Assembly (NCBI GenBank): GCA_037951105.1
Contig: JBAMJV010003787.1
Span: 1-64,000 of the forward strand
Length of the DNA: 64,000 nt
Reading direction: 5' to 3'
DNA from: Echinarachnius parma
Taxonomy: Eukaryota; Echinodermata; Echinoidea; Clypeasteroida; Echinarachniidae
Shown here: positions 12,411 through 61,569 of the stretch, one piece after another
Position numbering within the stretch: the first letter of the stretch is position 1
Layout of the letters: each line of letters starts with the position of its first letter
Notes under the pieces: model-generated
Seen by the model: the letters and a program-made list of their open reading frames with translations, nothing else
Database searches by the model: none
Told to the model about the DNA's origin: nothing
Translations under genes and position numbers: made by a program

Positions 12411-12560
12411 GTTGGGTTACTTTTGTAAGAAATATCATCTACAAGATCCAGTTGTCACCAAGCTCTACTCTGTTCCACCGACAACATCTATGAAGTGGTG
12501 ATACAATCGGTGAACTTGTATTAATCTACACTGTTGTAGAAAATTGCTCATTATGATAAA
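12411..12560 (+). pseudogene. First copy of the tandem start-codon exon (no start codon)
   Basis: It follows an acceptor TTTAACAG. It shares with the real first coding exon the blocks AGTTGTCACCAA and ATGAAGTGGTGATACA and a stretch homologous to the start codon. Where the real exon has ATATGGCTGATTATGAT, this copy has AATTGCTCATTATGAT, so the ATG is absent. It may act as an alternative 5' leader exon. Confidence 0.55.
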
Positions 12561-12625
12561 TCTAGTATTCAAGTTGTTACCTAATGTAGTTCTAAGTTAT
12601 CCCCTTCTTTTGATGTTATGTGCAG

Positions 12626-12745
12626 GATGCAAAGAAAGCCTCCTCCATTGCACTTCTTCATCCATGAAGTGGTGATACCAATCATTAACTTGTATTGATC
12701 TACACTGTCGTCAAAATATTGCTAATTATGATAAATTTACTCTTC
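12626..12745 (+). pseudogene. Second copy of the tandem start-codon exon (no start codon)
   Basis: It follows the acceptor ATGTGCAG. It shares ATGAAGTGGTGATAC and a start-region homologue reading ATATTGCTAATTATGAT, one base away from carrying an ATG at the homologous place. Spacing from its neighbours is about 175-215 bp. It is probably a leader-exon variant or dead. Confidence 0.55.
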
Positions 12746-12799
12746 AAACATGATATCCAATATTTAGAGAAATCATCTTCTTTTCTTTCTCACCTGCAG

Positions 12800-12953
12800 G
12801 TTGCTTTCATCAAAGAAACATCTAGAGAATTTAGTTGTCACCAACCTCTACAACCATTCCACAACACCCATGAAGTGGTGATACAAATTATCAGTCCTGT
12901 ACTCACGTAGATGTAAACAAATATGGCTGATTATGATTATGATCAACCCAGCG
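12800..12953 (+). CDS. NEK6/7 exon 1 (coding part 12923-12953)
   Basis: Acceptor CACCTGCAG precedes 12800, and donor GTAAGT starts at 12954. The 5' leader is 12800-12922. The start ATG at 12923 has an in-frame TAA at 12914-12916, so no longer N-terminus is possible in this exon. It encodes [10 protein letters not shown] and ends in phase 1. The short acidic N-terminus is what is left of the variable NEK6/7 N-terminal extension. Confidence 0.85.
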
Positions 12954-15900
12954 GTAAGTACAAATCATTTCTTGTTTGCTTACAATGAAAAACGTGTGAA
13001 TAAACTGTTTTTACAATGATGATACTGATATTAAAAATATCCAGCTTATTTTGAAAATGTGAATACTTGCAATAATTACGCCTAACAGTATGTGACTTAC
13101 ATGTTTAGAAGAGCTGTACATGTATATAAGTTCTTTAGATTTGGTTTCTTTTTAGACGATGCCCTTTAATCATACAAAAATGATGTGATTGGAATGGCAA
13201 TATCAGTGTAATATTAATGAAATAAATGACACAATTTTCAACTCAACAACATGCTAATCCACATACTATAGTGCAATTTACTATGTTGCCAAACATTTAT
13301 TTAATATTTTCATTCAGAGCTAGCCCACGAGGACCCAGCCATCTATTCGGAGCTCGGCAACTTTGCGATTGAGAAGAAGATCGGCAAGGGGCAGTTCAGT
13401 GAGGTGTACAAGGCGAGATGCCTGCTCAACAACAGAGTCATAGCGCTCAAGAAAGTACAGGTAAGATCTATCAACTGTTGATATGTTTTTTATACTGTTT
13501 TTACAACATAGAGTTAATGAATCATGCAGTTTACTAATTGTAGACAACAGTTTATTTAAATAGGGGAGATTACTTGTGCACTGATGTCACTGTTAGATTT
13601 CTTTGCGATTGAGAAGAACGTTGGCAAAGGACAGTTCAGTGAGGTGTACAAGTGCCTGCTCAACAACAGGGTCATATCACTCAAGAAAGAACAGGTATGG
13701 TTCTGTGATACTGTTTTCATGAAGAGTTAAAGATTATTATTGTAGGCACTACTATAGGCAAGAAGTTAATTAAGAGAGATTAAATGTACCCTTACCTCAA
13801 TGTTAAAGTTCTTTGCAATTGAGAAAAAGATGCCTGCTCAACAACATGGTCATAGCACTCAAGAAACTGTGAGATACAAATTTAATTCAGTTATTTCTTT
13901 GATGCTGCTTTCCTAGGAGATTATAACAATGTTTGTTGGTATACTTGTGTATTTAAAAGGTCATAGCTATAGTGAAATGTGTCAGCAATTTACAAAAGAT
14001 GTGAAAATAAATTATTAACCCTAGCATTGCACTATATGTTGAATTTTTGTCTCCTTTTCTTTCTCAGATATTTGAGATGATGGATGCAAAAGCCAGAAAT
14101 GACTGCATCAAGGAGATTGATTTACTAAAGGTAAAGGGATTTCTACCACTTTTTTTTCACACCATCCATCATTATAAATGTCAATATATTTATGTAATTC
14201 TACCATTAACAACTTTCTAAATAAAATCTTGATTTGATTTTGTCCATGAATGATGTCCACCATCAACATATATCCAGCACACAATGTGCATTTTTCAACT
14301 CTCAAGGGAGCAATGCAGCCTTAAGGCGCCGTCAAACCAAACCCGACACGACACACGACACGACATTACGACACGACACACGACACGACACACGACACGA
14401 CATACGACACGACACACAACACGACACACGACAGTGCACCACGTGACACACGACAATCTCAATACTGTCGTGTTGGTCGTGTTTACTTCGTGCAGTGATA
14501 ATAGTCCTTTGAAAAGAAGCATTTAGCCCTTTAGAAATCAAATTCAACTTCAATAGATCTAGCAACTTTATGTTGACATATTATACAGTATATGAGCGAA
14601 ATGTTAAAATGTTATTTGCTAACTCATTGTAAAAGACTCGTATGTTTGTACAGATTAATCATAACTATATCATTAAGACAAATGACATAATATAAGGGGG
14701 GGGGGGTTCATACATTCGTACGAGGAAACACCAGGCATGATTCTGTAGCGCCTTTGAAATGGAATGGCTCTTTCTTCTTCTTTTTGTCTTTGTGGGGGAT
14801 GGAGGGGGCAGCAGCCCTCATCCCATTTCCGATGCCTATGTGTAATGGCCCCAAATATAGTATTATGTGAGTTTATATTTTATTCTACCCTCGCCCCCCC
14901 CCCCCCCCCCCCCCCCCCACTCCAAAAAAAAAAAGAAAGAAAGGAAAATGAAAGGGTCGGATGAATCCAGTATGCTCATACACCCTAGGACACTATTCAT
15001 TCACTTTTCCATACAATTTCAAAAACGCACATACACACATCACACACACGAACAAACATATTTTATACACGTATAGTGCATAAACAGACACACACACATA
15101 CACACACACACACACGCACGCACACACAAACAAACACGCACACACGAACGCATGAACACACATACACACACACATGAGCTTCCAAAAGGCGCTAAATCCA
15201 CTATTTTAACTTTGGAGACTGAAAAGCAGGTTTCTTTGACAAACTTTGCACACATAATCTATGACAAAACATGATTTAGCGCAATTTTAAACTAAGCTCT
15301 ACTAAACACACGATATATACATTTTATGCAAATTTATTAATGTCAGTTTGTTCAAAGATTATTCTGTTGGTTTCAAATAAAAAGTGTAATAGTATTATGA
15401 TAAGAAAATCATGAAGTAAACAGAAAATATTTGTATCAATCCTTTAATACATTAATCAAAAATACATTTTTAAAGAACAATTATGGGAAATCTCACTCTC
15501 TTGAAAGATAAACAAGTACGTACGATACATAATAATAACAATAATTTATTCACATTAATTATATACATGTATACTATTAATCATTGATTGAACAAATACT
15601 CTAAACTTATATGATTGTGTTCCATTGTGTCTGTTTGAAAGAATTCTTTGAAGAGAGTCAATATTATACAGTTGTTAACTGGTGGTGGAGGGAAAAGCAC
15701 GGAATGTTCCACTCCGAGGGATTTTAAATGCTATTGAGGGAAGAGTAAATAAGTCCCGAGACGTAGTCCAGAGACTTATTTTCTTCACGAAATAGCATTT
15801 TAAATCCCGATGGGAACATTCCATGATTTTCCCGACAGCAAAGTTAACAACTGTTTTATCATCTGAATTGGCCGGTTAGCAGTGCCATGTAACATCCAAA

Positions 15901-18900
15901 AATGTTACATGGCAGCTGATGTACTGTATTTACTAAATCAGGTGATAATATATAATATAATCAATATCATAGAGTTTGTTTCAAGTGCCTACTAGCAATC
16001 AACCAACGACACAACAGTGTATTGCAACGTGAAAATAAACATCAAACTGAGAATGCATTCATCCAGATACCTTTTCCCGTTTGTAACCAACCCAATGCAG
16101 AAAGCATTCATATTCTTAATTTTCTAAAGATAGTCGCACAAGGGGGTTTACACAGTATTTCTTCACCATGACTACTAGGCATTATTTCAACAGTTAAAGG
16201 CTTTAAAATCGTACATTAGCCTTTCAGCATGCAATCTGAACAAAATACCATACAACTAATGTTTTGGAAAATCCTCCTTCAATGTTCGATGACATTGAAA
16301 ACTAAAAAAAGGAGAGCTAACCTACTGAAATTCAAATGAAATATTAGTATCATAATGATATAATGTATATATAAAATATTGCAATTCAGGGGCTCTCTTA
16401 TTCAAGTCCAAAAGTGATCCATTAGTTTCTCCAAAACTTATATCTAAGACTTTAATCATTTAAATTCTATGTGATTAATTTAAGAAATTACAATTCTTAC
16501 ACACAAATAGCAAACCTGCTGTATTTAAAATACATTTACAATATATAAAATATGAATATAACAGAATGGTATGACATTTAGAAGAACATGCATTATTTAA
16601 AGGGATCTAGTAACTTTGTTGAAACGTTTTGTACATGGTTTTAATGGTCCAGTGGATAATTGAACATCTGAACACTTCAATCATAAATATCTTTTTAACG
16701 AAATGGAAATTTGAAAAACCAAAACCTGTCCCATGATTGTATTGTTAATACGAATACAACAAGGTATGAGGGTACCTCTAGAATTCCAATTGGAATTTGA
16801 GGATTTTGACAATATTACTAAGTCCCTTTAAAGTGAAACCAGTTAAGTGTCTAACTCCAAAAAAAATACTTGGAGCTTCCACATTTAACTGAATGACATT
16901 CTAAAAAGATTTATAACAATATGTTGGCAATATCACATTGGGTATATACCACTGTGGGACATTCCCATTCGAGTCCCCCTGAGAAACACACATCTCAATA
17001 GTTAGGCAGCTAAGGGCTTGAAATCATAACAATTGTGCACAAAGTGAAAGAAATGTGAAATTTTCACAGTTAATTCATATCATCATAACGTTTAATTTCC
17101 CCCGTGGAAGTAGTTATGACCTTGAGGGGCGTGAGAGGGTCTTGAAAAAAGGGGGGGGGGGTTTACACCATTGTATGGGTATATAACATGACTTGATGCT
17201 TTCAGGATAAAAGGTGACCTGAAAGAATCAAAATGTCTACCAATATATTGTGGGGTAAATGAGAGGGGGTGGGGACCCCCCCCCCCCCCCTCACTTTCCT
17301 CCTGTGTCAAAAGTTTCACTTACTGATTCTGTTTGCTAATATATTACTATATAAGTGTACTATGATGTTGTACATTTCATGGCAGGGATTGGGTAAACAG
17401 GGGGGGGGGGGGGGGTGGAATGGAGAAAAGGGGAACCCCCCCCCCCCCCCTCCCCCGGCCTCAATTTTTATTTTGTTGTTGAAAGAGTGTTCATAAACAA
17501 AAAAAAATGGTTTTGTATATTACTGTATGATGACTGTGTACATTTCATGGCAGGGGTTGGATAAAGGAGGGGGGGGGGGGGTAGAGGTGGAGCAGAAGGT
17601 CGGAGAACAGGGGAATACCCCCCTTAGATTTCTCCTTTTTTGTTTGAAGTTGTGCTCATTTTTGTGAGTTTCTAAATATAAAAGTGCGGTGAGTTTTTAC
17701 ATCTCATGGCTTTGGTTAGGAAAACCTGGGGGGAGGGGGGCGGGGGGCCGAGGGGGGGGGGGGGGGTGATCTACTCCCATACTGTTCTCCAAATAGGCCT
17801 TTGTAGTTCAAATTTGATAGTCCATTTGAAAACATGACCATTTCATTCTTTAAGCAAGAAATGTTAAAACGTGTGCACTCAAGGGCTCGATCTGATAATG
17901 CATTATTATCCGCCTTGATGATATAGTGGTTAACACTAAATGATATCATGCATTATTTACTTTATTTCTTGTTAAAGGGATAGGTGAGTCAAACTTAACT
18001 TTAGTAACCATCCTACATTATAGTTTACATACGTTTTATGATGCAAGACATACAAACTATGTTAATTTTACAAGGACAACTCAAGCTGCTTTAGATCTTG
18101 GTACATTGCTTACTTCTGACAGTCACCATACAATCCAGATCCTTAAACACAGCTGAAAAAAACGATAAAGAAAAAACACAGATAATTTGATATCATTTTT
18201 ATTTTAATGTTGCAAACATAAGTGGCGTAGCTCTGGCGGAACATTGCCCCCCCCCCCCCTTCACTGGAGGGAGGGGGGGGGGGGGTACGGTAAAATTAAA
18301 AAACAAAACAAATAAAATGTGTAGTGTGTCCTCAAATTATTTCAGTGCTCCAAATCAGTTGGACCATGCTACACCACTGTGCTATAAGTGCATCACCAAA
18401 CAGACACAAAGTATATAAAACTCCAATATTAGATATTAATTTGTACCCTGAATTATGCAGACCAAATTTGAATTTGAGTATTGAAATGTGCATAATGTTG
18501 CTGTAGTTTGTGAATTGATTACACAAATGACAAAAACATCTTCAAGGCAAGTGTCAACTATATCTACATGTTCTACCAAACTTACTGTATAGATTGTGAA
18601 TGGTTGGTCTAAGTGTTGTCCATGTAGTTAACTCCTCAAAGGTTTTCCTTGGTGTTCCTTCGTCAAGGCAGGCACTTGATGGAGGCTGTCCAGCTAGATT
18701 GTAACCTGTTGATAAAAGAAAGAAATGGACAGAGATGTAATGTATTACCCATGCTTTGCTAATGAAAAAATAAGTTGTATCAAGTACAAACTTAACATGG
18801 ACATTATTAAAACTATGTATACACATAATTCTTTAATCTGAGCCCATATTTAATTTATTAAAACACAAGAATTTGAATACCATGCAAGATTGCAAGGCAT

Positions 18901-20918
18901 GCATCTAAAACAAAAGAATCTGGAGAAAACTCACAAATTACATGCTGCATCAAAATTGTAGAGCCTCTTAACTTTAGCCTTAGTACTTCTACCTGATGAC
19001 TTGATGTTGAATTATTTGGCCCAGATAAGTTTGGCATGCATGACGCACAGAAATAAGGCCTTGCTAGGCGACCGAGTCCTGGCCGAACTAGGCCTGGTCT
19101 AGTCAGAACACATACGCATGTCTCGGTCGCGTGCCATGGTCTAGATTGATACATCTATCAAATGAACTAATGAAGTATCATTTTATTTTTAAACCATGAC
19201 TCGAGATGGTCTTAAATGATTGTTAGACCACGCTATCGTCAAGCCTAAAGCTATCGAGTACAAACACAGAGTCATAAACTCATATACTTCGACCTTCGTG
19301 ACTCGACCAGGACTAGAGTCTAGCTAGCCTAGGGCTAGGTCCAGGTTAGCCTAGCTAGGCTAGATCTTCAGTTCACCTAGCCCTTATATTCATTGTGATC
19401 TGTGTATCACTCAATCATGCCAAAGCCCGAGCCCAAGGCAAGGCCAAACTTAAAATATAAGTTATTACTTAGGCCAAATCATTCATAACTGAGAAATACA
19501 AATACCACTTATAATTATAATATCAATATCACTAGTCACTCGGTCTCTCAGACTAGGACTTCACTCTAGTTCAGGACACCAGTCTCACTCAAAGAATTCT
19601 CAGTTAGACTCACCGAGTTACTTACCCTTCCAGTGTCAGTGAACAACAAAGTCAAATAATGATTTGTCACAAGATCTCAAATATACGTAGAACTTTGTAA
19701 ATAATCACAGTTATGTTCCAAAAGAAGTGAAGTTAGAGTGAAAGAGTGAAGTAACAGTGCTGTGTTGACTGTGCAGTGTTTTTACAACATATTTGACAAC
19801 GCATGGGACTATGAAAATCCCGTTTATATTATTGTGGCAAATAACATAACTTCTTATCAATTTGGACGCCCAAATGAGTAATACATTTATAATATTTACT
19901 AGGATGGTCTATAATACACATGATATATTTCAATATTTACCTTCCATAGCAGCAAAATGGCTAACAAATGTCCAATCTTCATGTGGATTTGACAAGTCGT
20001 GCAACTGCTCATTTACCACGTAAAGTCCATAGACAATTCATCGCTGGTGGGAATTTCCTTGACATATTTTTGGCCAAAAGACAGACTTGCAAGAATACTC
20101 GACTCTGATTGGCCAAAAGTCCAAAGTGTCGTGTGTCGTGCTTGAAAAATCGCTCTGGGAGCGATTCGATGGTACGACAAAAAAATCCCATCCCATCACG
20201 ACACAGGCACGACACACGACACGAAGTCGTGTTCGGTGTGACAGGTCAATGGAGTTTGTACATTATCGATTTTTTTTGTGTCGTGAGGCATGTCGTTTTG
20301 TCGTGTCGTGGTGTCGTGTCGGACTTGGTTTGACGGCGCCTTTAGTCTCTGTGTATGTGCATGTTTTTTTAACTGTTCTTGGCTGGTCCTGAAAAATACC
20401 TGGACTGGGGTCTCTGGAAAATACAGAAATACCAAAATTAAAAAGTCTTCAATGGGAAAACAAATTCTTAACAAAAATATTGCATACATGTTACTACCCA
20501 TCTGTACCTTGACACAAGATCTTTGTTATCTTTATATTTTTTTGTAATTTTTTTGTATTTTTTTGTAAATTTTGTTGATTAACATTTTTGTCTTTGTTTT
20601 GTCCAATCACAGTCTCTGAATCATGACCATGTGATCAAGTACTTGGCTTCGTTCATTGAGAACAACGAGCTCAACATTGTACTAGAACTAGCCGACGCTG
20701 GGGACCTGTCGAGAATGATCAAGGTAATAAATTGATTATCAGTAAATAATTATAATTTGCAGTCAATTTTAATAAAAAAACGCATGATGGTGTCAAATGT
20801 AGTCTTTATTGTGTCACATCTCAATTCACCACTAGAAAGTCAATGGCTTTATTCATTGTGAGCAATGAGCTCAATAATAGAAGTAGCCGATCCAGAGGAT
20901 TTATTTTTTATTTTTATT

Positions 20919-20962
<44 letters not shown>

Positions 20963-39050: not shown

Positions 39051-39187
39051 GAATGAACTTTAATACAGATTGTTCAGTTCAGTGAATAGTCTCAACTTAT
39101 ATTTATATTTTGGTGCACCCGGTCAGAAAAGAGTTATTGTGCCAACTTTGAATGTCAGTTTTAAGGCAAGGCCTTATTTAAAAGCCC

Positions 39188-45960: not shown

Positions 45961-45964
45961 CTCC

Positions 45965-50500: not shown

Positions 50501-53500
50501 ACCATTAGGGAAATAGTCTCCAATGGGAAGGAGGCATAACATTATTGAATACAATATTGGGATGAAAATAGATTTGATTACAGTATTATTTTATAAATAG
50601 ACGACATTCAGTAGTGTTTTAATGAGGCTTAACAGTTTAAACTTTTATAGGGCATACATTTTCGAAGATTTCATATATATATATATATGTGTTTGATAAA
50701 TGTAAAACATCATTCTAACTGTATTTCTTTCATTCTATGTAACAGCATCAAATACTCTGGGATCTTCACAGCACTTGTCATTATGGGGATTGTTCTAGCA
50801 GATTTCTGGCAGATAATTGGTGACAAAACTGTGTCAAATGTAAGTAAGAAATTCATCAAACTTTCATGCGTTAGATTTTGTTTTTGATTGGATTAAATGA
50901 TTTTGTTATTGTTGGAAGTAATTGATGAAGAATATGCAGTATTTTGGACAAATATTGCCATTCACTAACCTAGGATTTAGACAGAAATTGGAGTTGCTGT
51001 ATTTAAATGAAAACAAAACATACAAAGGCAGACTGTAAAGATTTAATCCATTATATGACAGGCATCATACTAAACCAATGAAAGGTAGATCATGATATCG
51101 AAATCCGGAATTGAATTGGACTGCATAATACAAAACATGAATTCTCCTTTCTGATTCTGATATGAGATATCTAGGCAAGTCTTTTCAAACACACGTTGCT
51201 GAAAGTGCTATTTCTTTCAGATCTTTGTTTGTTTGTGTTTATATACATGTGCCACAGCTTAGTATTCATCTCTCTGTTATCTTTCTAAGTAGACATTTGA
51301 GAAACAAGTACATTTTGACACTATTCTTTCTTCGTCCAGTCCCAACTATTTAAACAAACGTTGTTGTTCCTAGTTTGTCTTAAATAACCTGTTCTCTATT
51401 TCCAGTCTCATCTATTCAAACACACGATGGCAAGATTGCTACTCCTAGCTGGTCTTTCAGTGGTCCTATACACCTCAATCTTCTACATTCATCTGTTGAT
51501 ACTACATAAACGTTTTTCTGCTTGAAATATACTGTAGTATAGCGGACAGCACAATGAAAAAAAAAAAGAAGTTAAATGACATGTTACTCTCTATATTCAT
51601 TTTTTCCAGCCCGATCTGTTCAAACACACGTTGGCAAGATTGCTACTCCTAGCTGGTCTTCCGGTGGTCCTGTACACATCAATCTTCTACGTTCATCTGT
51701 CCATCCTTCATCGGAGTGGACCGCACAATAACCGTATGACCAGTGCCTTCCAGGCTTCTCTTGAAGGTGGTCTGTCTCAAGTCATACAGGGACAGCCTTT
51801 GGAAGTAGCTTATGGATCGCAGGTCAGTATAAGTCCCTATTAGATCATAATCAAACTCCCCTATTATAATAATTCTTGTCATCAAGTCTAGACTCGAGTC
51901 TATCTATTTTTACAAGTTATTTTGATGACTAGCATCTTCTAGGCTTCACGTGAAGATGGTCGTGTCTAAAGTCATACAGGGGCAACCCTTGGAAGTAGCT
52001 TATGGCTCGCAGGTCAGTATAATTCCCTATTAAATCATAATCGTAACTCCCTAATTATAATCATTGTATTAATCAAGTCTAGACCCAAGTCCATCTAGAT
52101 TACCCTACGACACACACACCTCATGGTTTGCTGGCTTCACTGGCATGCCAATACATACCCTCTGAGATACGCGTAAAACACAGGGAGCAGCCTACAGCAG
52201 CATTATGTCATACAAGTCACATACAAGCAATCTTTAGATAGGCAAATTATGAATTAATTAATTTATTTCATTTTCTTATCGTGTCTAGATCACCCTGCGA
52301 CACACACACATCATGGACTGCTGGCTCCATTCACATCCCAACACATACCCACTGAGATACTCAGAAGACAGGGGGAGCAGCCTACAGCAGCATTATGTCA
52401 TACAAGTCACATTCAAGCAATCTTTAGATACGCAAATTACGAATTAATTTATATTTCATTTTCTTATCGTGTCTAGATCACCCTGCGACACACACACGTC
52501 ATGGACTGCTGGCTCCATTCACATGCCAATACATACCCACTGAGATACTCGGAAGACAGGGGGAGCAGCCTACAGCAGCAGGTCACCTGCTACTCATTCA
52601 AGGTAACTCATTTTCATTTGTTTATTTGTGACGGGATATAGCAAAACTCTGCACTTGTCAGTAAAAATCACATTTCCATTTTGAAGCCTATAGAAAGGCC
52701 TCATCACAAGCTTTCATTTGATGATTTGTTTGAAAAAAGTGGACAATATTTCGGCAAAGATGTGATTGTTTCAATTTTACTATTACATTGTACATAAGCC
52801 TTTTACATACATTATGTGAACTTATAATGCCAATTTCTTCAAAATAAAAATTACAGACAAGAGCAGGGTTTTGCTTTATCCAGTCATATTTGTTGTATTA
52901 TTGTAAATAGTGTTACTTTATTTCATATCAATGGCATTCACTTATTGCTTCTTTTATTTTCGTGTTGCATTATAAACCTTCATGAGGTAACATTCTATAT
53001 TCACGTGTAAAAATCTTTCTGAATGCCATTTACAAAGTCTTTATTTCATTTATCATCTAACTCTGAATGAGTGTCGTTTGTTGCACTACATTTTCCTTAC
53101 GTTGTTAACAGTGGCATAGCATGGTCAGACTGATTTAGGGGTACACACCTTACGTATTTATTTATTTTTCCCACAGATTTTCCCCTTGTGGTTCTCATTT
53201 TTTTGGTCGAATTATTATTATTATTATTATTATTATTGTTATTTTATTGTTGTTGGGGGGGGGGGGGGGGGGCGGGCGGCGGCACGTGCCCCCTGTACCC
53301 CTCTGTGCACTTCCCCACCACCGTAGCTTCGCCACTGATTGTAATGAATAAATGTAATTTGACTAGTTGTGTACCTTTGATCACCTTTCTCGTCATATTT
53401 TGCATTTTTCGTTGTCTAGTTGGTGTTCAAAGCATATTTCTTGTAATTTCTTTTATCCGTAGGACATCAACAACTGGTGGGTAGTGAAAGATCCAGAGAA

Positions 53501-53877
53501 AGATGTGCTAGGTATTGATAGTCCCCCTAGGCCTGTGCGGCATGGAGACATCATACAACTCATACATGGTACTACAGGCAGAAGACTAAACAGGTAAATA
53601 TAATTATAATTCATCATTATCATGATATCACTCATTGGTTGGTAGCGAAAGATCCAGAAAAGGATGTGCTAGGTATTGACAGTCCCCCTAGACCTGTGAG
53701 GCATGGAGACATCATACAACTTTATGGTACTACGGGCAGAAGGCTCAACAGGTAATACACCAATTCATGAATAATTCCTCTTCCCAGTTGTTAGAGTTAT
53801 CATCGTCATCTCCTTCGTCTTAGTCATCATCATCATCGTCATCATCGTCATCATCATCTTCACCATCTTCATCTTAG

Positions 53878-53933
<56 letters not shown>

Positions 53934-56900
53934 TTCATATTCATCTTTATCATCATTATCATCATCATCATCATCGTCATGATTGTCATCATTGTCATTC
54001 TCGTCATCAGCGTCATCAACGTCATCATCGTCATCATCATCATCATCATCGTCACCGCCACCATCATCAGTGTCATTATCCTCATAACACATTTCATTTA
54101 AAAACATTATCATCTGACCGGTCTTTATCACCATTATTTACTTTTGTTTTATCCGAAAATATTAATTGTTCTTGATTGTTATTTCTTCTGTGCAGTCATG
54201 ATGTGGCTGCCCCAATGTCCCCTAAATTCATGGAGGTTGCCTGCTACATAGACTACAACATCTCTTTTCCAGCACAAGATCTTTGGAGAGTGGTAAGTTA
54301 AAAACAAATATTTCTACATATAAGTCAGAGATAATTTTCATTTGACAGAGGGATGGAAAATAATTGAATTGTTATCTTAAAAGGCTACTTGCATGTTACT
54401 CAAGCTTAAGTACATACAAAGAGCACAGAATCATTAAAAATAGAGTGTTATCTAGAATGTATACTTTTGATTTTTGAAATAATGATGTTGACTTTGAATA
54501 ATAAACTGTGACATACTTCTTAATTTTCAGGAAATAGTTAATGGGGAGAATGACGGAGACGTATGGAAAGCCATTCATTCACAGATCAGACTGGTACACG
54601 TCAACACCTCACAAGCTATCAAGGTAAAACAAAATATGATAACTTTTTTTGTCTTAGAACATTGTATAACCAAATGATGAAGTCCCAGAATAAGTGGCCC
54701 GTATTCACAAAGGAGGTTTGTAGGAGGTTTGTACAAACCATGGTTTGACAATGGTTTACATCTATGGAATGCTGCTCGCATACCATAAATTGTAAATCAA
54801 CATTGTTAACAAGTATGGAGTTTACATTCCTTCTCCATCAGTTTACAAATGGCATTCCATAGATGTAAACCTTGTTCAAACCATGGTTTGTACAAACCTC
54901 CTACAAACCTCCTTTGTGAATACTAGCCAGTGATTTTGCAATAAAATGCATTCGCCCTAGACCATAGCCCAAGTAATTTTTAGGACCAGTGAAAATCAGG
55001 TTAATTTCGTACCAGGCCACTGAGTACGATTCCATCATGCACAATTTCTACTCCCCAGGGAGCATAAATGTATGGAAAGCCATCCTCTCCCAGATCATGC
55101 AGGCTGGTTCTGGCTCCATTCCTAAAATGTTTAAGGTGTGTGGAAAAGGTAGGAAGATACATGTAGAATGTATATATTCATGGCTACATAATTTTAACTC
55201 CTTGGCCCCGTTGCAGAAAGGGATACAATCGATTGTATGTTACAATTAATTGTAAGTCAGATCATGTTTTCTAAATGAGCAAATCTGATTGGTTGAAACA
55301 CGCACATTTTCGGACTTTCTTTCTGCAACACGGCCCAGGAGTATAATGTCGCATATTTGCACTACACACACATGCCATAGAGCTGTAAAATCCCTGCCAT
55401 TCAATCTGTTCATGCTGTGTGAGTGTGATTATTGATGTTAGCATTTTGTTTTGTTTTGCAGACCATGTATGATACACAGCAACCTGAATGGGTTTATATA
55501 CATATGAATTGGCCGCCAATAGGATCATTGATTACACTGCATTTCTTGCAGATATGATACTTTTAAAAATAATGTATTTGTTCTTTTGATTGATACTGTC
55601 CTTTACTTTGTAATTGATATTATGATTTTATTACACTGCAGACCACAGGAACACAGCTGCCAGACTGGGGTTTCTACCAGTATGAAATTGCCACTGATAG
55701 AATCATTGGGCAAGATGCCACCATCTGGAATGTGGAGGAGAACAAGTATTCAAGTGGTTTGTTACCAAATTAATTATTTCTAAGCTCATGCATGTATCTA
55801 AATAAATGCTGTCAATCTTGTGAATAGTGAGCACCTGAGTGAAACAAGAAAAGTAGCCACTGTAGACAGATGGCCACTATTAAAGGGTACCACCACCCAA
55901 AAATAATATTCTTATTAAATAAAGGTAACATCTTTAGTATTCCATTCCATCAACAAGTTCACAAAAATAAGTTTCCAGAAAAAAAAGAAAACAAATTGGA
56001 AACACATCACCATTCTAAAGCATGCGTTCATGCGTTCAAAAACATTTAAGTGTGTGTTGTTCTTTGCCTGGTGGTCCCCTTTAATTATTTCTAAGCTCAT
56101 GTTTCTAAATAACTGCCGTCAATCTTGTGAATAGTGACCACCTGAGTGAAACAAGAGAAGTAGCCACTGTAGACAGATGGCCACTATTAAGAGGTTTGAC
56201 TTTAGTAAATGACGAGCCAGAACAATTTGCCTGTAGAGATTGGAACATGTGACCCCTTGGTCAGTCTGGGATGTGGGATGTAGAAGAGAACATCTATTCA
56301 ATAACTTGCCGCTCGGTCTACTTGTTCGGTTTGAATCTAGAGGCTTAGGCTTGGGATCAGAATGAGGATTAGGGGTTGCCCGGGTTACAATTTAGGATTA
56401 GGTTTAGGGTTAATGGTCCAGTTGGGGTTGGGAAGTTTGAGACATCGTGTAGTAGACCAAGAGATGTAGACCAATAAGCGACCATAGTCCAGAACATCTA
56501 TTGGTATGATGTCAATTGAGATGTTTCTCCTACTGCTCAGTTTATCTACTTTCACAGTATCAATGTTTTGCTGGACTGAAAAGTGTTTCTACCAGTATGA
56601 AGTGGCCACCTATAGAATGTTTTCTCTCAGTGCCACATCTAGAATGTGGAAACGAAAAACTTTTCAAGGAATACATTTATTGAATAAACTATTTCTTTAG
56701 TTCAATTGATTTATCTTGAATAGTGAGCAAAGATAACTTGGCGTGAAAATCTTCATATTGATAACTAGATTTACATAAAGAATCCCCCGTATTATTATAG
56801 ATTACAATGTGATAACGGATGTTAATTTCCTCCTCATTTTCTCTTTCAGACCAAGAGGATGAGACGTGGGATCGCAATCAGAAAATGGGCTTCTTCAGCA

Positions 56901-59900
56901 AGTTCTGGGAATTACAAGTATGTTAACCCATCAAGGACGAGAGCTATTTTAAGGCAAAATTGATCATTGTTTTCCTCTACAAATTGGCAACTCCTAAATT
57001 TTGTTGACCGATCAATGATATAAAAATAGGTGGAAAATATTAAGTAATGACCATTTAAGACAAATATGAAGTGACTTTGCCACAAAGTTGCCAATTTGAA
57101 CGCCAATATCCGTTTTAAAAATATCACAATGTGTTGCCAATTTAAGGATTTTTCTAAATGATAGTGATTTACGCCATAATAAAAATCATTAAAAAATAAG
57201 TAAAGCAGGTAGAGTAACAAAATAGGGCTCTAAAAATAGAGGAATTTATGCTCTTTCTTCCTGTACACTTCACATAACTAGTCTTCTTCTTGTTTAAGTG
57301 TAGGACTACCAAACCACACATATGTGGGCCTTAGGCACTGATGGGAACATATACTTCTGTTAGTTCTGTATTTCCATGTGAAGAATATTGTAAAGCTTTT
57401 GTTCTCAACATAACATATTGAGCTTTTGTTTTCAACATAAAATATTGAGCTTTTGATCTCAACATAAAATAGTCTTAAGTTTTCGTTCTCACCATGACAT
57501 ATCAAGCTCCTAATCTGTTTACTTTCACCAACAGTCCTTATCAGGGGTGTGAATTGACTTAACATTTATTTCATAACAATAAGTCATTGGGTCTAAAACA
57601 TTTGGAAGAGCATTGCACCCATTCCCCTCTTGAGTGAAAGTTTAAAGGCAGGTAACTATCTTCAGCCACATTCACTTGTTACATAAAGCGAGAGGAAGTC
57701 AGTTCGCAAATTTAGAAATAATTTCTTTTAAATATTTGCTTGTGTCAATCATATTTGCTCATTTGAATATACCTGTATACATATACCTTTAGTATAATTT
57801 GGAAACAAAATTATATCCAGATTTACTTTTAAAATGCCTGATTTAAAAGCAGAACACATTTATTAAAGGTGTGTCCTTTCAAATGTGTCTTGGTCGCCTT
57901 TAATTGGTTAACTGGATTGATTTATTTTTGTTAATGTAGTGGAAGATGCTTGCTGCCAATAAGCAGGTGGTGGAGGATCACATATATCGCTCTGATCCAA
58001 TCGAGTGGCCTTTCATGGAGAGGGGGATTGCCTATTGGATGAGCAGTACTTCAAATGTAAGTTGTTGGTTGACTTAGTTATTGGAATCACCATCAGACTA
58101 TGTGTCGGAAATAATGTCATTTTATTTTTCTAAGAGGCACTTGGATATCGATTACCCCCTTTGATACCAAACTTTGAACCCCCCACAAACACATGAATGA
58201 AATTGAAAATTGTATTTTATGTAACAATATTATGTGAACGATTAATGTAAAGATGCCTTTTAATAGTGCCATTATTTCTGATTTATAATATGATATGCAA
58301 ACTTTTGCAAATAAACTATAAACAATTAAGGTTTTTCCATGACTCCATATAAAAAGATGTATTTGTGCCAAACCAGACAAGATACAATTATGGTATTCTA
58401 TTCTATTTTTATACAATTTAATATTAAGTTCATGAATGGTATTTTTTTATTTTCCCTTTTTTGTTATGCTAGGCCCAAGTGTATCAACTTGGCAACCCTG
58501 TTATCTGGTGGTCGGCTGACATTGCCATAATTGTGTACCTGGTTGTCATGGTGATCTACATGATGCGCTACCAGAGGGCCTGCAAGGACCTTACTGCAGG
58601 TAAATAATTCATCATTGCTTTTGTGATCAATTAATTTTGGCTCAGTCTAATATATCAGTGGTGCATATTACAAACGGTGACAAAACAACATAAAAACAAC
58701 TAATAAATGAAGGCTACTTTAAATTGATGATGATGATGATGACAATAGTGGTGATGATGATGTTGTTGATGATTATGATGATGATGATGTTGTTGATGAT
58801 TATGATGATGATGATGATGATTATGATGACGATGATGACGATTAAGTTGATTATCATAATAAAAGATGTTGATTATGGAGAATATAATAACATAGCTGCC
58901 AAGTCTCCCTGATTTTGCAAGAAACTCCCTCAAAATAGACCAAGAGTAATGTAATCTCCCTGATTATTCCAATATTATTGTCATATAGGTAGTATGCATT
59001 TTCTGGATTTCTGATGACATTTTCCTAAATCTTCCCGATTGTTGAATTTCAATGTTAGTAGCCCTGTAAATTTGACTGTGACAATGTGGATTTGTTTTAA
59101 TTGTGATTGTAGATGAATGGACGCGGCTGCTCCTCACCGGTTCCCTATTCGTAGCCTGGCTTGCAAACTACCTCCCTTATTTCTTCATGGATCGGACGCT
59201 CTTCATACATCACTACTTCTCGGCGCTGCTTTTCAAGATACTTTTATTAGCTGCAACAACTGAGATAATATACTCTCATGTATTAAAGTAAGAATTGTCA
59301 AATGCTAATATTAGAGCACCACTAACAGTACATTTTGTTGTCATTGCACATCTGTAATTGTAGTTAAATGATGTTTTTAACAAATCTACTCCCTAATATC
59401 TTTCAATTTATATTGTTACTTTTGAATGAGATAAGTCTCTTTCCTAGCATTGTAAATTTTGAGTCAAAATGTTTGATAAAGTATATTACTTTTTTATGAT
59501 ATAAATGGTAATAATAATATTTCAATCAACTGTTCAAACACTAATGTTGCTTATATTTCCCCCTAACAATGGATTTGGAAACTTATTGATTTTCGTCCAG
59601 AATCAATTATTTACCAATTTTTGTTACTTTTAATTTTGTTTTGTATTGATTGACATTGCCATTGTTCAGTTCAGCTACGTGAATGTATATTCCCTTTAGG
59701 ATTTTGATATCATAATTTACAGATTAATTTCTTTATATAATATTTATGTACCTTTGTGACAGAGCACTCATTAATATATTTTAATGTTACTCTTCTCATT
59801 TGTTTTCTTTTCGAACAGAACATCAACTCAGCGTAGCCTCTTCACAAGTCTTTTAGTCGTGTGGGTCACATCTGTAGTCTTCACCTTCAGGAGTTTCTTG

Positions 59901-60002
59901 CCCTTCTGTTGTGGAATTACATCTTTGACGGGAGAAGAAATCGAGTCGCTGCGATGGATGGAAAGCTGGGGTTTCCTGGTCCAAGGAAAAATGATAAGCT
60001 AG
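47294..60002 (+). CDS. POMT1: POMT1, protein O-mannosyltransferase 1, complete spliced gene (17 coding exons, 752 aa)
   Basis: Joined exons: 47294-47535, 48031-48185, 48931-49077, 49717-49825, 50188-50253, 50746-50839, 51610-51822, 52477-52602, 53463-53593, 54196-54292, 54531-54623, 55642-55756, 56850-56917, 57940-58056, 58473-58599, 59113-59287, 59819-60002. The enzyme moves mannose from dolichyl-phosphate-mannose to Ser/Thr of proteins such as dystroglycan in the ER membrane, working as a heteromer with POMT2. Seen are the luminal catalytic FDETHFG (82-88, Asp83-Glu84) and HPPLGK, multiple membrane segments, three MIR repeats (about 325-530, including [11 protein letters not shown] and [15 protein letters not shown]) and the C-terminal membrane block with [36 protein letters not shown] and the [11 protein letters not shown] segment fit POMT1 better than POMT2. 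Length matches human POMT1. An in-frame TAA at 47282-47284 fixes the start. Confidence 0.95.
48031..48185 (+). CDS. POMT1: POMT1 exon 2: catalytic DE loop
   Basis: Acceptor ATATCCAG, donor GTATAA. It encodes [20 protein letters not shown] and [20 protein letters not shown], the first luminal loop with the Asp-Glu pair needed in the PMT family. Confidence 0.93.
48203..48408. mobile_element. Palindromic MITE, ACCGTAAACCGGGGTGAC family (copy 2)
   Basis: It starts 18 bp after the exon 2 donor. ACCGTAAACCGGGGTGAC at the left, GTCACCCCGGTTTACGGT at the right. Confidence 0.8.
48771..48842 (+). pseudogene. Decayed copy of the 5' half of POMT1 exon 3
   Basis: CTGCCAATATGGAAGCTGCG, CCCGCCTGCCTTGTGTAG and CTCAGCTACCTGAA align with exon 3 (CTGCCCATATGGCACCTGCG and on). 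It lies 160 bp upstream of the true exon, with stops and no acceptor. Confidence 0.75.
48931..49077 (+). CDS. POMT1: POMT1 exon 3
   Basis: Acceptor CTGTCCCAG, donor GTGAGT, phase 1 to 1. It encodes [20 protein letters not shown] and two membrane segments ending GALLVLC. Confidence 0.92.
49135..49205 (+). pseudogene. Decayed copy of the 3' half of POMT1 exon 3
   Basis: CTACCTGGTTCTAAAACGG and TTTGGCCATTGGACTTCAGC align with the end of exon 3. A possible trace of exon 4 (CCTTGCACTGCTCAAGTT) follows at 49260-49278. Confidence 0.6.
49375..49660. mobile_element. MITE with ATGTGACTGGATAT ends (copy 1)
   Basis: About 285 bp, from ATATGTGACTGGATAT to TCCAGTCACATAT, with GGCCTCATCACAAGCTTTCA inside. 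A second copy lies at 52625-52890 in intron 8. Confidence 0.65.
49717..49825 (+). CDS. POMT1: POMT1 exon 4
   Basis: Acceptor CTTGATAG, donor GTCAGT. It encodes [20 protein letters not shown] and on, the conserved loop after which the family has the xTQSRxILLD motif. Confidence 0.92.
50188..50253 (+). CDS. POMT1: POMT1 exon 5
   Basis: Acceptor TTCTGAAG, donor GTAAGT, 66 nt. It encodes [20 protein letters not shown]. Confidence 0.9.
50303..50380 (+). mobile_element. SINE fragment with (ATT)n tail
   Basis: GCTAGTATGCTTCCCAGGAA...GTTGAGATGATGC then an ATT tail: the 3' part of the SINE seen at 8690-8925. Confidence 0.55.
50746..50839 (+). CDS. POMT1: POMT1 exon 6
   Basis: Acceptor ATGTAACAG, donor GTAAGT, ends in phase 0. 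It encodes [20 protein letters not shown], then [12 protein letters not shown]. Confidence 0.92.
51340..51528 (+). pseudogene. Two decayed copies of the 5' half of POMT1 exon 7
   Basis: Copy A (51340-51381) follows TCGTCCAG and reads TCCCAACTATTTAAACAAAC before breaking down. Copy B (51406-51528) follows ATTTCCAG and keeps frame for [20 protein letters not shown] plus [10 protein letters not shown], then runs into a stop with no donor. The real exon starts 204 bp after copy B. Confidence 0.8.
51610..51822 (+). CDS. POMT1: POMT1 exon 7
   Basis: Acceptor TTTTCCAG, donor GTCAGT, 213 nt, phase 0 to 0. It encodes a membrane segment, [20 protein letters not shown], then [18 protein letters not shown] entering the first MIR repeat. 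Confidence 0.93.
51935..52030 (+). pseudogene. Decayed copy of the 3' half of POMT1 exon 7
   Basis: GGCTTCACGTGAAGATGGTC, then AGTCATACAGGGGCAACCC and GCTTATGGCTCGCAGGTCAG match the exon 7 end and donor. A TAA interrupts the frame. Confidence 0.8.
52099..52476 (+). pseudogene. Two decayed upstream copies of POMT1 exon 8 (about 189-bp tandem array)
   Basis: Copies start at 52099 and 52289, each after CTAG, and the real exon starts at 52477: spacing 190 and 188 bp. Copy 1 has an in-frame TAA. Copy 2 is open through GSSLQQ but then diverges (CATTATGTCATACAAGTC) and has lost the donor. Confidence 0.85.
52477..52602 (+). CDS. POMT1: POMT1 exon 8: first MIR repeat
   Basis: Acceptor GTGTCTAG, donor GTAACT, 126 nt, phase 0 to 0. 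It encodes [20 protein letters not shown], then [20 protein letters not shown] and FK. The last of three tandem copies is the intact one. Confidence 0.92.
52625..52890. mobile_element. MITE with ATGTGACTGGATAT ends (copy 2)
   Basis: Similar over its length to 49375-49660, including GGCCTCATCACAAGCTTTCA. Confidence 0.6.
53463..53593 (+). CDS. POMT1: POMT1 exon 9: second MIR repeat
   Basis: Acceptor TTATCCGTAG, donor GTAAAT, phase 0 to 2. It encodes [20 protein letters not shown], then [20 protein letters not shown] and RLN. Confidence 0.92.
53624..53751 (+). pseudogene. Duplicate of POMT1 exon 9, open frame but no acceptor
   Basis: 128 nt (parent 131), open throughout ([20 protein letters not shown], then [20 protein letters not shown]), with an intact GTAATA donor. 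The base pair at the acceptor is AT instead of AG and no pyrimidine tract precedes it, so it should not be spliced in. Confidence 0.8.
53815..54090. repeat. CAT/ATC microsatellite, about 270 bp
   Basis: Imperfect ATC triplets in POMT1 intron 9. Met-rich and Asp-rich frames on the - strand are artefacts. Confidence 0.9.
54196..54292 (+). CDS. POMT1: POMT1 exon 10
   Basis: Acceptor TGTGCAG, donor GTAAGT. It encodes [20 protein letters not shown], then [13 protein letters not shown]. Confidence 0.92.
54531..54623 (+). CDS. POMT1: POMT1 exon 11: third MIR repeat
   Basis: Acceptor ATTTTCAG, donor GTAAAA, 93 nt, phase 0 to 0. It encodes [20 protein letters not shown], then [12 protein letters not shown] possible worn copy (GTATGGAAAGCCATCCTCTC near 55070) lies downstream. 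Confidence 0.92.
54701..54923. mobile_element. Long palindromic MITE with GTATTCACAAAGGAGG ends
   Basis: The left arm GTATTCACAAAGGAGGTTTG is the complement of the right arm CAAACCTCCTTTGTGAATAC. Arms extend about 80 bp each with few mismatches. Confidence 0.85.
55205..55340. mobile_element. MITE with CCGTTGCAGAAAG ends (copy 1, partial)
   Basis: GTTGCAGAAAGGGATACAAT...TACAATTAATTGTAAGTCAG and a right end CTTTCTTTCTGCAACACGG. A fuller copy is at 62047-62211. Confidence 0.7.
55462..55545 (+). pseudogene. Decayed copy of POMT1 exon 12, upstream
   Basis: Follows an intact TTTTGCAG and aligns with exon 12 (ACCATGTATGATACACAGCA, then AATTGGCCGCCAATAGGATC), with indels and stops. 180 bp before the real exon. 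Confidence 0.75.
55642..55756 (+). CDS. POMT1: POMT1 exon 12
   Basis: Acceptor CACTGCAG, donor GTTTGT (a weaker donor), phase 0 to 1. It encodes [20 protein letters not shown], then [18 protein letters not shown]. Confidence 0.9.
56105..56310 (+). pseudogene. Partial decayed copy of the POMT1 exon 12 end plus MITE fragment
   Basis: GGGATGTAGAAGAGAACATC (near 56275) aligns with TGGAATGTGGAGGAGAACAA in exon 12. The preceding DNA (56105-56205) is a fragment of the TCAAACCTGT family also seen at 55825-55895. Confidence 0.5.
56575..56670 (+). pseudogene. Another decayed copy of POMT1 exon 12
   Basis: GTTTCTACCAGTATGAAGTG, GCCACCTATAGAATG and GCCACATCTAGAATGTGGAA align with the middle of exon 12. 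Frame lost, no splice sites. Confidence 0.7.
56850..56917 (+). CDS. POMT1: POMT1 exon 13
   Basis: Acceptor CTCTTTCAG, donor GTATGT, 68 nt, phase 1 to 0. It encodes [20 protein letters not shown], then ELQ. Confidence 0.9.
56925..57939. other. POMT1 intron 13, with a small tandem repeat
   Basis: A roughly 30-bp unit (AACATAAAATATTGAGCTTT) repeats about four times at 57385-57480. The rest is AT-rich with no exon seen. Confidence 0.6.
57940..58056 (+). CDS. POMT1: POMT1 exon 14
   Basis: Acceptor TTAATGTAG, donor GTAAGT, 117 nt, phase 0 to 0. It encodes [20 protein letters not shown], then [19 protein letters not shown], the SDP-EWP block typical of the family. Confidence 0.93.
58473..58599 (+). 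CDS. POMT1: POMT1 exon 15
   Basis: Acceptor TATGCTAG, donor GTAAAT. It encodes [20 protein letters not shown], then [20 protein letters not shown]: a GNPVIWW motif and a membrane segment. Confidence 0.93.
58715..58850. repeat. GAT/ATG microsatellite
   Basis: Imperfect GAT triplets in intron 15. His-rich and Met-rich frames here are artefacts. Confidence 0.9.
59113..59287 (+). CDS. POMT1: POMT1 exon 16
   Basis: Acceptor GATTGTAG, donor GTAAGA, phase 1 to 2. It encodes [40 protein letters not shown] and on: the C-terminal membrane region with the conserved FxHHY motif. Confidence 0.93.
59290..59818. other. POMT1 intron 16
   Basis: AT-rich. Nothing recognised. Confidence 0.5.
59819..60002 (+). 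CDS. POMT1: POMT1 exon 17 (last coding exon)
   Basis: Acceptor TCGAACAG, stop TAG at 60000-60002. It encodes [20 protein letters not shown], then a final loop and [20 protein letters not shown]. The LxWxxSW ending matches the POMT1 C-terminus. Confidence 0.93.
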
Positions 60003-60548
60003 CATTTTAGACCACTTATACATAGTCTACAACTTTGTTTGTAGCCCTGGACTACCACTTGCATTTTGCTACAGCTCTACATTTATGACTGAAAGAGAAA
60101 TCGAGCAGCTGCGATGGATAGAAAGCTGTTTTTTTTTGTACAAGTAAAAATGACAAGCTAGCAGGAAATAAGTCCTTCATTAGGAATGTTAGTATGACTC
60201 TGAGCGGAGATTTTCTGTTGCGGAATTACATCTTTGATGGGAAAAGAAATTGAGTCGCAGAGATGGATGGAAAGCTAGGATTTTCTGGTTCAGGGAAGGA
60301 TGATAAGCTCTGTTCGTTCATAAATGATGTTTATAAAGGTCAATAACTAGACTTTTAGACTTACTTTGCAGAACATAATACTAAGCAGATGCCTTCTGGT
60401 ATTTAAACAGAATGGACCTTCTGATGTGGAAGAGGAATTTAAGATGCTGCGATGGATAGAGAGCTGGGATTCCCTTCTTCAGGGAGAAATGATAAATTAG
60501 CTAGCATCAAGCAAGTCCTTCATATTCAAAGCAGTAATATAAGGACCA

Positions 60549-60862
60549 GGGGGGTGTTTCACAAAGATCCGAAGTTCAACTTAACTCTAAGTTGGACTTT
60601 ATAGAAAGTATGGAAAGTCGATAGTCTCGTTGAAACAATTTTGTAAAATTTATTTTAAAAACTACTTAATGTTGATTCCAATCATTGATATTTTCTATTA
60701 TCAAGGGGATTTCATGTCTTTGATGTCTAATTTATGAAAAGTCTAAAATACACCCATTTTTTGCATTTGAATATATTTTATTCCAAGGCTACAAATGGCT
60801 TTCCATAATTTTAAAGTCCAATTTAGAGTTAAGTTCAACTTAGGATCTTTGTGACACCCCCC
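60549..60862. mobile_element. Palindromic MITE, GGTGTTTCACAAAGATCC family (copy 3)
   Basis: GGGGTGTTTCACAAAGATCC at the left, GGATCTTTGTGACACCCC at the right, inner arms AAGTTCAACTTAACTCTAAG and complement. It sits between two exon 17 copies. Confidence 0.75.
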
Positions 60863-61183
60863 TGGAACTGAACATTTAGACTTATTTCACAGTTCTATCT
60901 CTCCAAGAGGATGCTTTCTGGTACTTCAACGGAATGGACCTTCTGTCGTGATATTACCTCTTTGACGGAAGAAGAAATGAAGTCCCTTCGATGGATGGAA
61001 AGCTGGGGTTTTCTGGTCCAATGAAAAATGATAAGCTAGCATTAATAATAATAATATACTTGATTTATATAGCGCCTAAAGGAGGTTTTTAAAGGACAGG
61101 ACTTGGACTTTTTATAGACTTTTGTCACAGTACTATTTCTCTGAGCTGATGCTTTCTGGTATTTAAAGGGAATAGACCAGGGC

Positions 61184-61321
61184 CCCATTTCATAAAACTT
61201 TTCGTATTGTTGTAAGTGTCCAATTATTGTAACTACCGTGGCAACAGCTAAAATGCTTGATGGTGATTGGCTGTTGCTATAGTAGTAACCATAATTGGAC
61301 ACTTACAATTTGAAAAGGGGT
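61184..61321. mobile_element. Palindromic MITE, AAGTGTCCAATTATTG family
   Basis: Left GTAAGTGTCCAATTATTGTA, right ATAATTGGACACTTAC, about 138 bp, with GGCAACAGC / GCTGTTGC inside. Confidence 0.65.
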
Positions 61322-61569
61322 CCAGATGTTGAATTATGTTTTTTGAAGGAAGAAGAAATTGAATCTTTGAATTGGGGGTTTTCTGGTCCAAGGAAATATG
61401 ATAAAATAGCATTTTTTTTACCAGTCTGTAGTCTACAAACTTGTAACCCAGGATCTAATCACTGGACTATTCAAAATCCTTAGTTTTCTATTGCAGTTCT
61501 ACATCTCTGATGAAAAGGGAAAATTTGTAGCTGCTTTGGGTAGAAAGCTGGGTGCTTTTTAAGCAAAAA

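Follow-up and report, generated by a model that had tools for sequence, protein, structure and literature searches.

How do two neighbouring genes come to be strewn with extra copies of their own exons, and what becomes of such copies? The question is raised by a single window of DNA from Echinarachnius parma, namely positions 1-64,000 of the forward strand of contig JBAMJV010003787.1 (assembly GCA_037951105.1). The answer we favour, with considerable confidence, is that short tandem duplications are decaying in introns, through a process that probably acts on DNA and that has left one copy, kinase exon 7b, likely to be spliced. The gene models on which this answer rests are as follows.

13318..38295, forward strand: NEK6/7-type kinase gene, coding exons 2-8, built from GT-AG exons and reading frame
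13318-13460, 14068-14130, 20613-20723, 29858-29966 and 30652-30854, forward strand: kinase exons 2-6
32878-32991, 33815-33925 and 38182-38295, forward strand: kinase exons 7a, 7b and 8
47294..60002, forward strand: POMT1 gene, 17 coding exons in a continuous frame of 752 codons plus stop

The kinase form with exon 7b matches the Pfam Pkinase domain (1.3e-63), the form with exon 7a matches Nek7 chains in the PDB (E 5e-157), and the POMT1 product carries Pfam domains PMT, MIR and PMT_4TMC. Exon 1 and the start of the kinase were not found for the gene model in the window. Exon numbers are those of an earlier first-pass annotation of this DNA, which agree with the models built here. Both are ordinary animal genes and lie next to each other; one encodes a kinase of the cell cycle, the other an enzyme that adds sugars. 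Scans of the window for Rfam families (gathering thresholds) and tRNAs yielded no match.

Extra exon copies in the kinase and POMT1 genes

Translations of 25 exons were compared with the window by tblastn, using a reversed decoy as control. At E<=0.01 there are 20 extra matches, which correspond to 19 copies because exons 7a and 7b match each other, and all 20 lie on the same strand as the parent exon and <3 kb from it, with none elsewhere. Local same-strand matches number 22 versus 2 others at E<=0.03, and 26 versus 16 at E<=0.15, whereas the decoy gives 0, 0 and 6 matches in all at the three thresholds. A DNA self-search of the 12.4-61.6 kb region recovered 41 direct local matches; none of 30 block-wise dinucleotide shuffles produced even one. 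It also recovered 15 inverted local matches, of which 0/15 fall within a coding exon. A more permissive self-alignment (+5/-4) was discarded; it joined unrelated segments and masked nested copies.

The many extra exon copies that the first-pass annotation had reported in both genes, all in direct orientation, are therefore real, and the matches persist under proper alignment. Its statement that copies lie within about 1.5 kb is right in that all are local, although the largest parent distance is 1661 bp. No coding exon intervenes between parent and copy, which share gene and orientation. In total, 12 exon loci have copies, one of them (kinase exon 4) weak. Kinase exons 3 and 6 and POMT1 exons 13-16 had been described as free of copies, and no local match is listed for them below E 0.5; POMT1 exon 16 has one at E 0.66 among matches to E 1. 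POMT1 exon 11, which had gone unnamed, has a doubtful copy at 55067 (E 0.14). The following features were examined in and near the kinase gene.

12427..12937, forward strand: three tandem units upstream of the kinase, spacings 174, 206 and 386, 75-84% identity
13601..13866, forward strand: two decayed copies of the 3' part of exon 2 (tblastn 3.8e-14 and 2.7e-4)
20844..20890, forward strand: weak partial copy of exon 4 (40/52 bp, d=200)
30039..30407, forward strand: three copies of the 3' part of exon 5 (tandem array score 752)
33815..33925, forward strand: exon 7b, candidate alternative exon, whole and open, AG and GT intact
38300..38413, forward strand: 34-bp repeat with spacing 80 (32/34 bp, copies at 38300 and 38380)

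The two copies of exon 2 (85/100 exon columns at d=240 and 36/39 at d=412), the three of exon 5 (77/80, 79/80 and 47/58 exon columns, with a period of 152 for the first two and the third decayed) and the single one of exon 7 all stand as originally proposed. The one copy assigned to exon 4 is weak, with E 1.4e-5 as DNA but only 0.37 as protein. Two copies of exon 1 had been placed at 12427-12937, where the DNA repeats are genuine but their status as exons is not supported, and inspection by eye revealed no splice site joining these repeats in frame to exon 2. What had been taken for a copy of the 3' end of exon 8 is the 34-bp repeat, which lies directly past the kinase stop codon and is noncoding. 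POMT1 carries a longer series.

48753..48836, forward strand: 5' part of exon 3, upstream of parent (64/83 exon columns, d=179, E 2.4e-6)
49144..49194, forward strand: 3' part of exon 3, downstream of parent (35/45, d=142, E 1.5e-4)
51399..51507, forward strand: 5' part of exon 7, upstream of parent (88/102 exon columns, d=204, E 9.9e-16)
51925..52097, forward strand: 3' part of exon 7 plus intron (74/87 exon columns, d=189)
52094..52471, forward strand: exon 8 in two copies with a spacing of 190, both preceding the working exon at 52477
53624..53755, forward strand: copy of exon 9 (104/119 exon columns, d=161)
56585..56668, forward strand: decayed copy of exon 12 (64/85, d=915, E 0.003)
60078..61551, forward strand: 3' part of exon 17, the last, repeated about six times beyond the stop codon

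Here the earlier counts hold for exon 3 (two partial copies), exon 8 (two, with 89/104 and 100/104 exon columns), exon 9 (one) and exon 17 (about six, five of them at E<=0.01 together with short fragments near 61343-61403, with 75-90% DNA identity where aligned). Two 5' copies and one 3' copy had been claimed for exon 7; one of each is strong, but the second 5' copy (51181) is weak at E 0.024. Similarly, only one of three proposed exon 12 copies is well supported, whereas those near 55491 and 56256 are weak (E 0.029 and 0.076).

Copy geometry, co-copied intron and decay

Partial copies that lie upstream of the parent carry the 5' part of the exon and those downstream carry the 3' part at 7/7 loci (tabulated by hand), as in-place tandem duplication predicts. 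The breakpoint falls inside the exon at 7 of the 12 exon loci: kinase exons 2 and 5, POMT1 exons 3 and 7 twice each, and POMT1 exon 17. Such copies lack one exon end and its splice site from the outset and could hardly have been cassette exons from birth, and so the notion of a supply of alternative exons, as first put forward, is too strong. Intron sequence was copied along with the exon, as had been noted, in the kinase exon 5 units (67/72 intron columns), the POMT1 exon 7 3' unit (71/85) and the tails of the two POMT1 exon 8 copies (53/60), when these columns are counted apart from copy-versus-copy columns lying outside working exons. This speaks against copying from spliced RNA. Origin as transposable elements or retroposed copies was rejected, given the co-copied introns and the lack of any exon match at E<=0.01 beyond the parent's neighbourhood in the window.

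The copies are at many stages of decay. In-frame stops occur in 5/18 copy segments and indels in 7/18, and most copies are truncated, interrupted by stops or devoid of a splice site; only exon 7b looks alive, in keeping with the first description. It alone is a full-exon duplication with both splice sites, and all other copies are partial or degenerate tandem duplications. Judged by segments listed by hand, copies make up 44% of kinase intron 2, 54% of kinase intron 5 and 71% of POMT1 intron 7, whereas elsewhere in POMT1 they account for just 14% of intron 6 and 22% of intron 9. Microhomology at the junctions, judged by eye, amounts to a few bases at most, and the junctions are too old to judge.

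These features are best explained by a course of events in which short stretches of DNA at or near exons, mostly of 140-240 bp, were duplicated in place, head to tail, again and again. On this account, a breakpoint within the exon leaves the working exon intact, with an exon fragment and some intron alongside; if a unit spans a whole exon, one copy remains in use and its twin loses a splice site or acquires stops. Such remnants then decay almost neutrally in introns or behind the gene, and the introns lengthen.

Exons duplicated in tandem are already known from the genes of animals (Letunic et al. 2002, cited by PMC12343006 and PMC9013439); what is unusual here is their density. In the known cases, as here, the copy adjoins its exon in the same gene and orientation, and some copies lie unannotated in introns; degenerate exons and intronic matches are named detection targets of Exonize (PMC12343006). 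By contrast, the present window combines 12 affected exon loci, over half of them yielding fragments, with a graded series of decay, all within one pair of ordinary neighbouring genes. The published frequencies, about 10% of animal genes with tandem exon duplication (PMC9013439, excerpt) and about 4-7% of vertebrate genes with full-exon duplication plus many more with partial or intronic matches (PMC12343006), use other criteria and compare only loosely with our 12 loci. A text search of PMC9741552 found no mention of pseudoexons, decay, remnants, degenerate copies or pseudogenes.

Unit length and exon preference

Two further patterns, noticed post hoc in this one window, are suggestive. The founding unit is 140-210 bp long in 12/17 cases (P 6.7e-5 to 3.5e-8 under three null length models), an interval picked after the data had been seen, with the 17 periods hand-picked at one per locus. 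For kinase exon 2 and the 12.4-kb units, both of which have further spacings, the list enters 240 and 174, respectively; it leaves out the 162-bp pair at 32662 and pairs linked to transposable elements. The second pattern concerns position. The first-pass annotation had staked its reading on how often intron segments are duplicated; in a check run inside the window, intron-only duplications are fewer than random placement predicts. Among younger units, with ages entered by hand from exon identities, 7 of 11-16 overlap an exon versus 15-21% expected by random placement (P 0.0004-0.04). The CT-rich 32662 and G-rich 17348 units are counted in the set of 13 and not in that of 11, and the count omits the T-rich pair 31588/32165, the older or weak exon loci (POMT1 exon 3 twice, POMT1 exon 12, kinase exon 4), kinase exon 7, and tandem runs of units <60 bp.

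In-place duplication followed by decay does not by itself account for an exon preference, but the preference may be only apparent. Duplication could affect all parts of the sequence, whether its rate is ordinary or elevated, with exon copies remaining visible since selection holds the parent still while intron pairs drift apart, and we give this reading nearly an even chance. In simulations at 0.22 divergence per lineage, the search recovered 3-15% of intron-only pairs but 42-68% of exon pairs. The excess also shrinks under other ways of counting: to 7/16 (P 0.006-0.036) if the long-distance pair 28465/29177 and the transposable element-linked pairs 26780/27435 and 55770/56081 are added as intron events, and to P 0.02-0.07 if fewer exon loci are counted (4/8), as neighbouring loci are perhaps dependent. 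Furthermore, the tail of the exon 2 unit (32/45) suggests a locus older than the age assigned. Against this reading, the narrower younger sets have 7 of 11-13 units overlapping an exon versus 15-17% expected (P 0.0004-0.002), even though intron-only pairs with ages up to about 0.12 per lineage were detectable in 94-99% of simulations; with an older bound of 0.12-0.15, power is 64-91% and P is 0.0006-0.007.

If both patterns are genuine, a mechanism with a preference for exon-rich DNA of nucleosome length could lie behind them, for example the return of germline circles of about 180 bp to the locus they came from, or the unequal exchange of pieces the size of a nucleosome; the lengths of the units and the exon excess in the younger class would fit this idea. 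According to the excerpted text of PMC10581685, circles in the mouse and human germline are about 180 bp, GC-rich and derived from gene-rich regions, above all 5'UTRs. The resemblance lies in unit size and gene-rich origin, but the copies here are chromosomal and tandem, and any link is hypothetical. In addition to the post hoc interval and hand-picked periods, it counts against such a mechanism that duplicated exons hardly differ from the others in GC content (0.493 versus 0.465) or length (139 bp versus 123 bp), with no clear difference, and that the same excerpt of PMC10581685 reports next to no association between germline circles and new deletions in the germline. We consider it unlikely. 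Slightly less likely still is the broader proposal that nucleosome-length DNA at exons is preferentially duplicated in place, that introns grow largely from exon fragments, and that alternative exons are seeded in this way.

Exon 7b and the fate of the copies

Exon 7b shares 63% protein identity with exon 7a (E 1e-14). The two are homologous and of the same phase, with intact splice sites and open frames. In a codon-by-codon alignment, 22.3 of 39.0 changes are silent and 16.7 are replacements, and 1/1000 null runs were as low; a plain DNA alignment with frame-breaking gaps had given 0/400. To judge from these features, decay has passed 7b by, and it probably serves as an alternative exon to 7a. 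The two resemble mutually exclusive exons, such as those of Dscam (PMC9013439, excerpt), in lying side by side, in being homologous, in sharing a phase and in keeping their splice sites. On the other hand, the lengths of 7a (114 nt) and 7b (111 nt) are both multiples of three, so that a transcript with both would stay in frame, and the 823 nt of intron separating them seem more than simple steric exclusion would allow. They constitute a candidate mutually exclusive pair. Searches for papers on NEK7 with mutually exclusive exons and on POMT1 with exon duplication returned none on point by title and start of abstract.

It is quite improbable that the copies in general are kept by selection as alternative exons. 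Besides 7b, the strongest single case for selection is the POMT1 exon 9 copy, which has an open frame, a retained donor and one 3-bp indel, with 8 silent versus 3 replacement changes (P 0.02, one of 19 tests), but its acceptor is gone. The pooled nonsynonymous fraction is 0.53, below the 0.63 that a dead copy should show next to a conserved parent (P 0.002); some copies may once have been constrained, or the simple null, in which the parent undergoes only silent changes at the same rate, may be off. On the other side stand the fragments left at 7/12 loci, the stops, and the POMT1 exon 8 copies, which retain the acceptor but have an altered 3' exon end and no recognisable donor by eye, the first containing a stop. 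End-to-end placement of two haplotypes is a common error in heterozygous invertebrate assemblies, but it is a most improbable source of these copies, as it should yield long, near-identical duplications that include neighbouring exons rather than units of mostly 142-240 bp in up to about six extra copies, with 1-25% exon-column divergence, stops, indels and breakpoints inside exons.

Alternative exons are normally noticed only once they have succeeded. Where a working exon, a fresh copy and a ruin stand at one locus, both the birth rate of exons and their failure rate become measurable, and short head-to-tail copies show how introns can enlarge and alternative exons begin. If the preferences for length and for exons hold genome-wide, they would point to a mutational process tied to chromatin and to a source of part of intron sequence.

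Host genes and mobile elements

The AT-rich sequence (GC 0.357), which its genes suggest is of animal origin, carries on its plus strand a NEK6/7-type kinase gene, followed about 9 kb downstream by a POMT1 gene. Kinase exons 2 to 8, including two versions of exon 7 (7a and 7b), could be rebuilt with GT-AG splice sites, and no exon 1 carrying the start was located in the window during this reconstruction. The 7a form of the kinase matches Nek7 chains in PDB (E 5e-157), and the 7b form matches the Pfam kinase domain (1.3e-63). The 17 exons of POMT1, likewise bounded by GT-AG splice sites, join to give a continuous 752-codon frame with the Pfam domains PMT, MIR and PMT_4TMC. The following repeat elements are also present.

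21296-26216, minus strand: LINE-type retrotransposon in kinase intron 4, with an open 1258-codon frame (endonuclease and reverse transcriptase domains)
39186-39487, 43777-44113 and 60546-60865: three sites of a MITE-like family of about 300 bp with inverted ends
49390/52624 and 35412/48202: further inverted-end pairs
26780-27668: two 234-bp direct repeats (85%) flanking a repeat element with further occurrences near 16628 and 38520

A second LINE frame, located upstream and spanning 260 codons, has no Pfam matches and is also open; because both frames are open, the element looks like a recent insertion. A 174-codon open frame at 45442-45963 (minus strand) yielded no Pfam match at E 0.001, and by eye it seems to resemble the end of a LINE reverse transcriptase frame.

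Extra exon copies and their geometry

Tandem duplication of exons has been described before and affects about 10% of animal genes (a 2002 study, as cited in an excerpt of PMC9013439). Full-exon duplications occur in about 4-7% of vertebrate genes, with partial or intronic matches in more (PMC12343006, excerpt), and a duplicated exon serves as an alternative exon in an oyster oxidase (PMC5589949, excerpt). In the portions of the open-access literature consulted, we found no published description of a comparable copy density in a NEK6/7-type kinase gene and POMT1.

The first-pass annotation had claimed extra exon copies in both genes, and this was confirmed when 25 exon translations were each searched against the whole window, with the reversed window as a decoy. 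All 20 additional rows at E<=0.01 share the strand of the parent exon and lie no more than 3 kb from it (hereafter 'local'), and these represent 19 copies because 7a and 7b match each other. Local matches numbered 22 versus 2 elsewhere at E<=0.03, and 26 versus 16 at E<=0.15, while the decoy gave 0, 0 and 6 matches at the three thresholds. The copies fall into twelve exon loci, namely kinase exons 2, 4 (weak), 5 and 7, and POMT1 exons 3 (two), 7 (two), 8, 9, 12 and 17. The earlier exon-by-exon list of copies held on most points, with some exceptions. The main claim of that annotation extends this behaviour, as a proposal, to the entire genome. DNA self-comparison across 12.4-61.6 kb gave 41 direct local matches versus 0 in each of 30 shuffles. 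None of the 15 inverted local matches in this interval falls in a coding exon, and several are probably members of small-element families with inverted ends.

If a segment is tandemly duplicated in place and one breakpoint falls within an exon, the working exon must stay whole, and the copy must carry the exon's 5' part when it lies upstream or the 3' part when it lies downstream. This geometry was observed at all seven partial loci (hand-tabulated). Intron sequence was copied as well in the first two units of kinase exon 5 (67/72 columns identical), the 3' unit of POMT1 exon 7 (71/85 columns) and the tails of both POMT1 exon 8 copies (53/60 columns). At their 3' ends the two exon 8 copies agree with each other and depart from the working exon, and therefore one copy is probably derived from the other, which had already changed. 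Coverage by copies, estimated from segments listed by hand, reaches 71% in POMT1 intron 7, 54% in kinase intron 5 and 44% in kinase intron 2, with lower shares in POMT1 introns 6 (14%) and 9 (22%).

Founding periods, counted as one unit spacing per locus, fall within 140-210 bp at 12 of 17 loci. For this interval, which was picked after the data were seen, the clustering has a probability of 3.5e-8 under a log-uniform model, 8.2e-6 under an exponential model, and 6.7e-5 under a flat model (12 of 15 loci with periods up to 300 bp). Nucleosome-length circles of about 180 bp, derived from gene-rich DNA, have been described in the germ cells of mouse and human (PMC10581685, excerpt); they offer a lead to mechanism, rather than evidence of action in these genes. 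Units of this size class also occur as an intronic tandem duplication at 17348-17740, where three G-rich units are spaced 168 and about 160 bp apart.

Exon overlap and detection bias

Both members of an intron pair diverge, but only one member of an exon pair, and exon copies therefore remain detectable for longer. This bias was simulated with ages that were assigned manually on the basis of exon identity. For the younger class (up to about 0.12 divergence per lineage), 94-99% of intron-only duplications were detected, and 15-17% of detected duplications were expected to touch an exon; at the older bound (0.12-0.15), the corresponding values were 64-91% and 16-20%. Exon-touching duplications were observed in 7 of 11 cases in complex sequence only, in 7 of 13 once two low-complexity cases were included, and in 7 of 16 when repeat-linked and long-distance pairs were taken as intron events, giving P = 0.0004 to 0.036 across age and count settings. 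The excess is weaker if some neighbouring exon loci are not independent (5/9, P 0.006-0.025; 4/8, P 0.02-0.07), and POMT1 by itself is exon-rich (32% expected). An intron-based check agrees with the set age for the POMT1 exon 7 3' unit (71/85), whereas the kinase exon 2 units (32/45) appear older than was set. Younger duplications are thus likely, though not securely, to overlap exons more than random ones would, a pattern that was sought after it had been seen.

Fate of the copies

Among 18 aligned copy segments (7b left out), five carry an in-frame stop and seven carry indels. Their pooled changes (86.3 synonymous, 97.7 nonsynonymous) give a nonsynonymous fraction of 0.53, compared with 0.63 expected for a dead copy beside a conserved parent (P 0.002), which points to nearly neutral decay with a hint of earlier constraint. 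The strongest single case, at P 0.02 as one of 19 tests, is the POMT1 exon 9 copy (53624-53755), with 8 synonymous to 3 nonsynonymous changes. Its frame is open and its donor is present, its acceptor is lost, and its changes are mostly silent, which marks it as a candidate alternative exon whose loss would be recent. Copies of the last POMT1 exon (60078-61551) sit downstream of the gene, with an early stop in two of the five examined; in principle, such copies could be used as alternative last exons. Exon 7b retains an open frame and canonical splice sites, and differs from 7a by 22.3 synonymous and 16.7 nonsynonymous changes over 37 codons, a balance as low in only 1 of 1000 null runs. Judged from these sequence features, 7b is the sole copy that we would call alive.
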